DNA of 64,000 bases, taken from NCBI GenBank assembly GCA_029637525.1, contig CP072660.1, positions 1,327,612 through 1,391,611 on the forward strand. The letters run 5' to 3'. Each line of letters begins with the position of its first letter. Position 1 is the first letter of the stretch. The notes under the pieces were generated by a model. The model had not been told where the DNA came from, searched no databases, and saw nothing but the letters and a program-made list of their open reading frames with translations. A program made the position numbers and the translations under genes. This DNA is from Desulfurococcaceae archaeon MEX13E-LK6-19 (GTDB lineage: Archaea > Thermoproteota > Thermoprotei_A > Sulfolobales > Desulfurococcaceae). Positions 9,763-30,291 of the stretch are shown here, piece after piece.

Positions 9763-11283
9763 ATGGGAGGTGTTGTGGGCTTGTTTTCTAGGAAGAAGAT
9801 TATCAAGGAGATCCTGGATTACTATAGGAAGATCTGGGCTATTGGGCATGCTTTAAATCTTCTCCACTGGGACACAGAGACCTATATGCCTGAGAAAGGT
9901 GTTGTTGAGAGGAGTAGTGCTGTTGCCGAGCTTAGCGTTCTTGCCCAGAAGCTTATCACTGATGAGAAGTTTGTCAAGCTTGTTGAGAAGGCGGCCGAGC
10001 TCAAGGATCTTAATGATTATGAGAAGGGGTTGATTCGTGTCCTAGAGAGGACTATTAGGGTTGCAAAGAAGCTCCCGCCTAGACACGTCCACGAGTTCGC
10101 TAAGGTTACGCAGGAAGCTGTTGTCGTGTGGAGGAATGCTAAGAAGGCCAACAACTATGATTTATTCAAGCCTTATCTCAAGAAGATCATTGAGTTAAAT
10201 AGAGAGAAAGCAGAGTACCTAGGGTACAAAGAGCACCCTTATGATGCACTCCTGGATCTCTACGAGGAGGGTATGACTACACGCGAGGTAGAGGAGGTTT
10301 TCCGTGTACTCGAGCCCGGTGTTAAGAAGATCCTGGAGCGTGTTCTCGAGGAGAAAACGTATCCCCAAACACACCCGCTTGAGGAAGTAGAGTATAACAT
10401 CAGGGCTATGAAGCGTGTCAACGAGAGAGTCCTCAGGATACTCGGCTACCCATTCAACAGGGCTAGACTAGACGAGTCAGCACATCCCTTCACTATACAC
10501 ATGGGGATATTCGATGTAAGGATAACGACTAGGTATGAGGGCAAGGACTTCAAGAGGAGCCTCCTTGGGACAGTCCATGAATTCGGTCATGCTCTATATC
10601 AGCTACAGATCGATAAAAGGTTCTCCATGACACCACTAACAGAGATCACCTCACTAGGTCTCCACGAGAGCCAGTCCAGGTTCTGGGAAAACATTATCGG
10701 TAGAAGTATGGGCTTCGTCGAAACAATATACCCCATATTAGCCAAGAGCCTCAGGTTCATAAAGAACTATAGCCCCAATGACATCTACCTATACTTCAAC
10801 ACCGTCAAGCCCAGCCTCATTAGAACCGAAGCAGACGAAGTAACCTACAACCTCCACATAATCCTCAGGTTCAAACTCGAGAAACTAATGATAACAGGGG
10901 AAGTAAAAGCTGATGAACTCCCAGAACTATGGAACCAAGAAATGGAGAGACTCCTAGGGATAAAGCCCAAGACCTACAGCGAAGGCGTTCTCCAGGATAT
11001 ACACTGGAGCATGGGAAGCATAGGCTACTTCCCAACATACTCTCTAGGCACAATACTCGCGGCACAAATAAAGTACCATGCCGAGAAACAACTAGGCAAC
11101 ATAGACGAGATCGCTAGAGAAAGAAGATTCAAGCAAGTAAGAGAATACTTGAGAGAGAAAATACACCGTTGGGGCTCAGTGTATCCACCGAAAGAACTGC
11201 TTCAGAGAAGCTTTGGCGAGACAATAAACCCCGAGTACTTCATAAAATACCTAGAAGAAAAATATCTTCAAAAACAGTTTTAA
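9763..11283 (+). CDS. M32 family metallocarboxypeptidase (Taq-type)
   Basis: About 506 residues, the usual length of thermostable M32 carboxypeptidases, which remove C-terminal residues from peptides in the cytoplasm. Visible: KIWAIGHALNLLHWDTETYMP near the N-terminus, the zinc motif HEFGH at about residues 272-276, and HESQSRFWEN about 30 residues later, which carries the third zinc ligand, followed by the conserved IRTEADEVTYNLHI. Start is ambiguous: ATG 9763 is 27 bases after TTTTTATT and could be leaderless, while TTG 9781 has GGAGGTG at ideal spacing. Peptide catabolism fits the peptide importer at 60.7 kb. Confidence 0.95.
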   Translation: MGGVVGLFSRKKIIKEILDYYRKIWAIGHALNLLHWDTETYMPEKGVVERSSAVAELSVLAQKLITDEKFVKLVEKAAELKDLNDYEKGLIRVLERTIRVAKKLPPRHVHEFAKVTQEAVVVWRNAKKANNYDLFKPYLKKIIELNREKAEYLGYKEHPYDALLDLYEEGMTTREVEEVFRVLEPGVKKILERVLEEKTYPQTHPLEEVEYNIRAMKRVNERVLRILGYPFNRARLDESAHPFTIHMGIFDVRITTRYEGKDFKRSLLGTVHEFGHALYQLQIDKRFSMTPLTEITSLGLHESQSRFWENIIGRSMGFVETIYPILAKSLRFIKNYSPNDIYLYFNTVKPSLIRTEADEVTYNLHIILRFKLEKLMITGEVKADELPELWNQEMERLLGIKPKTYSEGVLQDIHWSMGSIGYFPTYSLGTILAAQIKYHAEKQLGNIDEIARERRFKQVREYLREKIHRWGSVYPPKELLQRSFGETINPEYFIKYLEEKYLQKQF

Positions 11284-11344: not shown

Positions 11345-11354
11345 CTATATATAG
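11345..11354 (+). promoter_or_regulatory. TATA box of the tandem C/D-like RNA
   Basis: CTATATATAG is centred about 27-30 bases before the first C-like box at 11381, the spacing expected if transcription starts at about 11377-11380. Confidence 0.45.
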
Positions 11355-11377
11355 CTATTATGATTTAATATATAATT

Positions 11378-11450
11378 GAAGCGATGAAGAGCGAACCCGT
11401 GTCAGAGCGTTACTTAACGCGATGAAGAGGGTCGGCGAAGCAGAGCAACA
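11378..11450 (+). ncRNA. Tandem box C/D-like sRNA with variant boxes
   Basis: Two 28-base units share both ends: GCGATGAAGAG (11381-11391 and 11419-11429), 11 variable bases, then CAGAGC (11403-11408 and 11441-11446), separated by GTTACTTAAC. This is the C-guide-D'-C'-guide-D layout of an archaeal methylation guide, with C boxes GCGATGA and D boxes CAGA. In the kink-turn model the G-A pairs and the C-G pair are kept, and U-U becomes U-A, so folding is still possible. TATA-like sequence lies upstream and a TTTTT tract (11451-11455) right after. Guides would be 11389-11402 and 11427-11440, each predicting a G target by the D+5 rule. The remainder of the 11284-11579 gap is A/T-rich with nothing else visible. 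Confidence 0.6.
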
Positions 11451-11579
11451 TTTTTGTAAGAAAACAGGATTCTAGTTAGCTTATGATTTTGAGAAAGATG
11501 TTCTTCTTTATACACTATAATTTTTATTTTAGGGTTATGATGTTATGATATTGAGCTTAGAGTAATTGGGTGCTTTAGG

Positions 11580-11939
11580 GTGGTTACTGGGTATTGTGTT
11601 GTTATACTAGGTCTTATTAGCTGGGTTGCTATTATCTGGTGTCTACTGTACGTGGTTAAGAAGAAGTATTTTGTCATTGACTACAGTAGGTGTACATCAT
11701 GTAGTTTTAGAAGTGTATGTTCTAGACTTAAATTAAACAAGATATTCCCTCCGACCAGGAGAGCAAAACCTATACCATGGGGTATGAGATTACTGATAGC
11801 TTTAATACCTGTTGTAGGCTATTTTGTTATAATCTACCTGGTATCTATAGTAAATAATGAGCCAATAAATCTCTACTCGATGGTTCTCGGAGCAACGGTA
11901 GCAACAGCATTTTCATTGGTCATAGCTGGAGAACTATAG
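11580..11939 (+). CDS. Small membrane protein with cysteine cluster
   Basis: 119 residues. A hydrophobic helix at about 5-26, then a positively charged segment with CTSCSFRSVC (three cysteines in ten residues), then two hydrophobic helices at about 70-89 and 98-117. The cysteine segment lies between helices 1 and 2, next to KKK and RRAK, so it is probably cytoplasmic and might bind metal or be redox-active. Starts with GTG at 11580; GGGTG is about 8 bases upstream. No family recognised. It faces thiL tail to tail. Confidence 0.6.
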   Translation: MVTGYCVVILGLISWVAIIWCLLYVVKKKYFVIDYSRCTSCSFRSVCSRLKLNKIFPPTRRAKPIPWGMRLLIALIPVVGYFVIIYLVSIVNNEPINLYSMVLGATVATAFSLVIAGEL

Positions 11940-30234: not shown

Positions 30235-30291
30235 GGAGTGAAGAGAATTGCACGGACTGACTCCCGTGATGATCCTCCACCGGGTCTGACC
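30235..30291 (+). ncRNA. Box C/D guide sRNA with two guides
   Basis: Complete archaeal layout: C box GTGAAGA (30238-30244, one mismatch), 12-base guide, D' box CTGA (30257-30260), 5-base spacer, C' box GTGATGA (30266-30272, perfect), 13-base guide, D box CTGA (30286-30289). Two G-C pairs can close the ends (GG at 30235-30236 with CC at 30290-30291). A TATA-like ACTTTATTA at about 30199-30207 and a TTTT tract right after fit a self-contained unit. Predicted targets by the D+5 rule are a U (first guide) and a G (second guide). It lies immediately 3' of the convergent ABC ATPase gene. Confidence 0.82.

Follow-up and report, generated by a model that had tools for sequence, protein, structure and literature searches.

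A 64,000-nucleotide stretch of a Desulfurococcaceae genome (1.91 Mb, one contig), hereafter called the window, carries a two-unit repeat in an intergenic gap, and the ends of the repeat resemble the boxes of a guide RNA with unusual letters. This raises the question whether the locus is a box C/D sRNA gene, whether its odd boxes are a functional variant or signs of decay, and which RNAs its guides would address.

Location and architecture of the locus

The gap of 296 bases lies between the stop of an M32 carboxypeptidase gene at 11283 and the start of an unnamed 119-aa ORF at 11580. Positions 11381-11446 read GCGATGAAGAG-CGAACCCGTGT-CAGAGC, then GTTACTTAAC, then GCGATGAAGAG-GGTCGGCGAAG-CAGAGC, which amounts to two 28-base units (11381-11408 and 11419-11446) with starts 38 bases apart, shared ends and differing 11-base middles, as an earlier note on this DNA had described. 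Taken alone, the repeated 11-mer is modest evidence, with 3 matches at one mismatch or fewer in 64 kb where 0.91 were expected. A scan for four C/D boxes returned 2 arrangements for the window, whereas 10 block-shuffled copies yielded none. At this locus the boxes follow one another as C, D', C', D and enclose 12-nt guides, the arrangement of archaeal box C/D sRNAs. A profile of 20 relatives built without the window copy placed the RNA at 11381-11447 (48.1 bits, E 2.4e-14), its sole match in 64 kb. The features of the locus are as follows.

11346..11353, + strand: TATA-like promoter element TATATATA, seen in the sequence 39 nt before the U of box C
11377..11382, + strand: terminal stem, 5' side, UGAAGC; its last GC pairs with the GC after box D
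11383: G11383, kink-turn bulge L1, in the register taken from 29 relatives
11384..11390, + strand: box C, AUGAAGA, in the register taken from 29 relatives (mostly RUGAUGA)
11391..11402, + strand: guide 1 (D' guide), GCGAACCCGUGU; N+5 is C11398
11403..11406, + strand: box D', CAGA; the family has CGGA, CAGA or CUGA
11407..11420, + strand: D'-C' spacer hairpin GCGUU-ACUU-AACGC, flush with D'; a G-A-U bulge precedes the sheared pairs
11422..11428, + strand: box C', AUGAAGA; relatives have RUGAAGA or RUGAUGA
11429..11440, + strand: guide 2 (D guide), GGGUCGGCGAAG; N+5 is C11436
11441..11444, + strand: box D, CAGA; relatives have CUGA, one CCGA
11445..11449, + strand: terminal stem, 3' side, GCAAC, from the pairing comparison
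11451..11455, + strand: T5 tract, a possible terminator, seen in the sequence

The earlier note had framed the transcript with this TATA and T5 tract. The TATA-like score, averaged over 25 family members, is highest some 36-43 nt ahead of box C; the signal is modest, and a further maximum lies at -16/-17. Runs of at least four T after box D occur in few relatives only, so the T5 tract is weak evidence of termination.

Distribution of the family

In a DNA similarity search, 20 of 60 other genomes matched at E<=0.001, all of them from the same family as the window genome, while the 24 genomes outside that family gave no match. Further members were found through either guide, and 30 (the window copy and 29 relatives) were compared. 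This collection is biased, as 25 of the 30 were gathered by searches that included guide 1 or its surroundings; in the five gathered through guide 2 alone, guide 1 is still nearly unchanged. Named records with the same RNA include MAGs of Desulfurococcales, Desulfurococcaceae, Thermogladius and Staphylothermus, and SKYB35, which is titled Sulfolobales. Four unrelated bacterial records were discarded, having only the search pattern and lacking the second half of the RNA. In Staphylothermus and a related genus the sRNA lies between PEBP-like and NDP-sugar nucleotidyltransferase genes (L106 1397-1591, L327 1392-1602); the window copy has other neighbours, and the gene context has thus changed around an unchanged RNA.

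With the covariance models of Rfam 15, nothing in the window reached a gathering score, and the members L001, L106 and L096 gave no match at E<=1. The family is apparently uncatalogued, being absent from Rfam 15 and from the literature searched, which left out the tables of Lui et al. 2018.

The repeat alone is weak, and it is the conservation across relatives that leads me to accept the sRNA gene as real. Judged by sequence and comparison, the region 11377-11449 is a genuine box C/D sRNA gene, in line with the two-guide C/D sRNA proposed by the earlier note: its four-box architecture is conserved in relatives, and the repeat has no gene-family explanation. That there is no RNA gene, merely a chance repeat or an element acting at the DNA level, is hardly credible. 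The repeat is indeed short and its 11-mer only mildly rare in 64 kb, but the architecture is kept in 29 relatives from many genera and in differing gene contexts, and the profile match found without the window copy contradicts a chance origin. A tandem duplication of the whole unit was also considered and rejected. The 28-base units share kink-turn positions only, and their symmetry is therefore explained by equal boxes and stems, although the CAGAGC end may have arisen by local conversion.

Box register and kink-turns

In relatives, box C is RUGAUGA, GCGAACCCGUGU adjoins it directly and C(G/A/U)GA comes next; in their second half, RUGAAGA (or RUGAUGA) is flush with NGGUYGGCGUUR, followed by CUGA. 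Since these boxes end flush with the 12-nt guides, the window boxes must be read as AUGAAGA, three bases further 3' than the GCGATGA of the earlier note, and with this shift the extruded U, which the note had given up as lost, is kept. The two sheared G-A pairs that it had recognised are present in both motifs, and the pair that follows them, 3b.3n, is A.A at both ends and not the U-A pair it had derived from U-U. The C'/D' motif has a perfect stem of 5 pairs and a three-nucleotide bulge. The terminal stem is weak, with 2 pairs followed by mismatches (a further two pairs and a last single one lie beyond).

Each window box, AUGAAGA twice and CAGA twice, is one base off the RUGAUGA/CUGA consensus of archaeal box C/D sRNAs. 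Comparison with the family makes the deviation smaller than it first appeared. CAGA occurs at D' in about a third of the family, most others having CGGA, and it is thus ordinary there; only the terminal C/D motif of the window departs from its relatives, which have RUGAUGA and CUGA at this end. Among the 30 members, terminal 3b.3n is U.U in 26 cases; the window alone has A.A, L103 has G-C, and a pair of members from one genus have A-U. The internal motif has A.G in 15, A.A in 10, U.G in 3 and A-U in 2. As A.A is common internally, the terminal motif of the window has adopted the combination of the internal motif. The terminal CAGA/AUGAAGA thus reads as a two-sided substitution in the pair following the sheared pairs. 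This upholds the view of the earlier note that a genuine variant is present and not decay as far as the terminal motif goes, and withdraws it for D', where CAGA is shared with a third of the family. A second C/D sRNA in the same window, at 30238-30289, has two canonical CUGA boxes, which means that CAGA is no genome-wide box code.

Set against the sequence rules for box C/D kink-turns (McPhee et al. 2014, PMC4382518; Ashraf et al. 2017, PMC5689011), the window keeps the G-A pairs 1b.1n and 2b.2n, the G-C pair 4b-4n and the C-G pair -1b-1n, and differs in having A.A at 3b.3n at both ends, where archaeal box C/D kink-turns are strongly U:U (PMC5689011). The A.G found at C'/D' in many relatives is of the Kt-7 type, which folds in metal ions (PMC4382518, PMC5689011). 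Combinations that stay unfolded in metal ions still fold with L7Ae (PMC4382518), so A.A is plausible for function, although this is no proof.

The D'-C' spacer hairpin

The spacers of the family are of two kinds, about four bases long (a k-loop) or longer. Longer spacers pair flush with D' and leave exactly three bases before the G-A pairs, although their sequences and lengths differ: the arms are GCGUU/AACGC in the window, GCCCCCUAU/AUAGGGGGC in L114 and GCCUAUACAUU/AAUGUAUAGGU in L096. In 16 distinct long spacers there are 102 flush pairs against 10.2 in shuffles, and 0 of 5000 shuffles reach 102, a figure that is no count of independent events because several long spacers come from close relatives. 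The window spacer alone has a shuffle value of 0.0053. In the window and several relatives, C'/D' forms a full kink-turn with a hairpin stem, unlike the short k-loop of known archaeal sRNAs.

Guide conservation and candidate targets

Guide 1 reads CGAACCCG(U/C/A)G from N+2 to N+11; this stretch is identical in 28 of 30 members and the other two differ solely at N+3 (C in G035, A in G012), while N+1 is variable and N+12 shows a single change. Guide 2 reads GGU(C/U)GGCGUU over the same positions, with a variable N+1 and a freely varying N+12, except that N+2/N+3 are AA in the window and G012 as opposed to UU in relatives. The near-invariant footprint from N+2 to N+11 coincides with the 10 nt that the recognition rule names (Yang et al. 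2016, cited in PMC6313347).

Targets were sought in 16S and 23S rRNA and in tRNA. Matching the guides to both had been proposed in the earlier note; rRNA gave no convincing site, and tRNA supplied the better candidates. A scan of the window genome's 16S and 23S, and also of the rRNA regions in G022, G017 and G012, gave no consistent site for either guide. As a positive control, the same scan was applied to the second window sRNA and recovered two 23S sites, 26 nt from each other. A 16S site near 1220 (GGUGCCGACC) was rejected for guide 2, as it needs three G-U pairs with the guide of relatives and fails with that of the window. I take G022 to be Staphylothermus marinus and G017 to be Thermosphaera aggregans.

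The second sRNA (30238-30289, + strand) reads GTGAAGA-GAATTGCACGGA-CTGA-ctccc-GTGATGA-TCCTCCACCGGGT-CTGA. Its guides match 23S with N+5 at 927 and 901 of the window LSU, making it a classic double guide. The LSU rRNA genes of G019 and G012 are 3.7-4.2 kb long (L195, L196) and that of G022 matches in pieces (L197-L199), so that insertions or introns are likely. Among the tRNA genes, L157 (C1:136891-137040) has apparent insertions in the D-arm and anticodon loop, possibly two introns.

Guide 1 pairs fully with the T-arm CGCGGGUUCG of tRNA-Ser and tRNA-Cys in G000, G022 and G017, with 9 Watson-Crick pairs and 1 G-U over N+2 to N+11 (tRNA positions 48-57) and N+5 at G51. Shuffled guide 1 cores reached the number of fully paired tRNA genes, which includes pre-tRNA intron sites, in 5, 0 and 6 of 400 cases in these three genomes. 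The U-to-C transition at N+3 in G035 yields ten Watson-Crick pairs with the T-arm. Against the T-arm stand the U that 28 of 30 members retain at N+3, though C would pair better with G49, and the A of G012 at this position, which breaks the match. The target of guide 1 is most likely the T-arm of tRNA-Ser and tRNA-Cys, with G51 as the predicted residue.

Guide 2 pairs fully with 12 of 42 tRNA genes in G022 and 12 of 43 in G017 at the junction of D-arm and anticodon arm (and at one chance site beyond the gene end), with N+5 at G26; the C/U difference at N+8 keeps the pairing to G29. Gly, Arg, Thr and Ser(GCU) tRNAs belong to the set matched at G26. As shuffled guide 2 cores reached the observed count in 9/400 (G022) and 20/400 (G017) cases and are thus only moderately rare, targeting of G26 is suggestive but unproven. 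In the window species and G012, guide 2 has no full 10-nt tRNA pairing, and no exact complement of the window guide 2 occurs elsewhere in its genome. Two pairs are lost in the window; Gly and Arg tRNAs keep the other eight (N+4 to N+11), which may or may not suffice. Full pairing over N+2 to N+11 is found for guide 1, and for guide 2 only in two relatives. All in all, the sRNA family most likely directs ribose methylation of tRNAs. G26 is an m22Gm site in hot-living archaea, and its ribose methylase is listed as unknown (PMC6313347).

Guide 1 also has complements in parts of pre-tRNAs that are removed. The tRNA-Asn introns L281, L306, L308, L292 and L314 from three genera contain CCACGGGTTCG, a perfect complement, and the tRNA-Asn intron of G012 (L256) contains CTCGGGTTTG together with a matching guide change. 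In the window genome, the intron of tRNA-Met (CAU; L030) contains CCACGGGTTCGG, and the complement in the leader of tRNA-Val(UAC) (L085 430-443, - strand; C1:258931-258942) ends two bases before the tRNA. This leader was rejected as the target, as the exact 12-nt complement is present in the window genome only and absent from relatives, and introns were rejected as the main target because they match in some genera only.

Discussion

The reading that I favour, at a probability of roughly 0.7, combines an autonomous C/D sRNA, guides directed to G51 and, in relatives, to G26, and functional A.A ends. Deduced from sequence, an RNA of about 70 nt would be transcribed from 11377-11449 on its own, using the TATA at 11346. 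It would fold into two kink-turns, C with D at the ends and C' with D' capped by the short hairpin, each with two sheared G-A pairs and an extruded U, then A.A. L7Ae, Nop5 and fibrillarin would assemble on both, and each guide would select for 2'-O-methylation the target residue that it pairs five bases upstream of its D box: guide 1 G51 in the T-arm of tRNA-Ser and tRNA-Cys, guide 2 G26 of a set of tRNAs in relatives, a site at which the window species retains eight pairs. At the ends of the RNA, CAGA/AUGAAGA would be a functional two-sided substitution. A more specific proposal, which I regard as tentative and less likely than not, is that guide 2 is the missing guide for ribose methylation of m22Gm26 in about a dozen tRNAs of Staphylothermus, Thermosphaera and relatives, alongside guide 1 for G51 of tRNA-Ser/Cys, and that the half directed to G26 has been lost or altered in G012 and in the window species.

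A true C/D sRNA family with some other target, be it a structured RNA, a pre-tRNA intron or an mRNA, would make the tRNA matches incidental to the GC-rich, conserved nature of tRNA. I consider this unlikely, although guide 1 forms ten Watson-Crick pairs with the tRNA-Asn intron in five genomes (G003, G016, G013, G022, G014) of three genera, the U-to-A change at N+3 in G012 is matched by A to U in its own tRNA-Asn intron, the tRNA-Met intron of the window pairs 10/10, and the tRNA-Val(UAC) leader is a full 12-nt complement. Most genomes that keep guide 1 have no such intron match, which leaves intron pairing as a rival or a secondary role; in G029, G011 and G005 the exact 10-nt complement occurs only antisense to the sRNA itself. 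Moreover, an AACC/GGTT inverted repeat in the Asn intron could produce part of the motif alone, and any methylation of an intron or leader would be lost once that segment is cut away.

Less probable still is that the window copy is decaying, its end boxes and guide 2 drifting while guide 1, or nothing, is still used. Such decay would account for the U missing from box D, the two pairs that guide 2 has lost next to box D, its want of a full tRNA partner and the interrupted terminal stem. It sits poorly with a change that is two-sided, affecting both C and D, and that gives the A.A which is normal in the C'/D' motif of ten members. No G-A pair has been lost, nor has the extruded U. Guide 1 shows no damage, the hairpin has no mismatch, and a TATA box still precedes the gene; G012, furthermore, has the same AA in guide 2 with canonical C and D boxes.

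The favoured sRNA would share with archaeal box C/D sRNAs (Dennis et al. 2015, PMC4644070; Breuer et al. 2021, PMC7994747) its length of about 70 nt, the order C-guide-D'-C'-guide-D, 12-nt guides, the sheared G-A kink-turn and the N+5 rule. About a third of known archaeal sRNAs have no rRNA target, and some match tRNA (PMC4644070, PMC7994747). Those directed to tRNA include one for Cm56 in Pyrobaculum aerophilum and others for the wobble positions of tRNA-Leu/Met/Trp in Pyrococcus, and T-arm position 50 has been suggested (PMC7912444, PMC7994747). As in these, a guide here is complementary to a tRNA arm and several tRNAs could be served, but the predicted residues are G51 and, in relatives, G26. 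Both guides would serve tRNA, whereas tRNA-directed sRNAs of Pyrobaculum usually have one orphan guide. An sRNA that addresses two separate parts of tRNA is less usual than a double guide for rRNA, a point against the favoured reading.

The tRNA targets, if true, link an orphan-looking sRNA to two tRNA positions, including G26 (PMC6313347). The family is also a natural series at 3b.3n, with terminal U.U, A.A, G-C and A-U and guides that are otherwise the same, and it offers a ready test of how far L7Ae tolerates such changes in a working sRNP.
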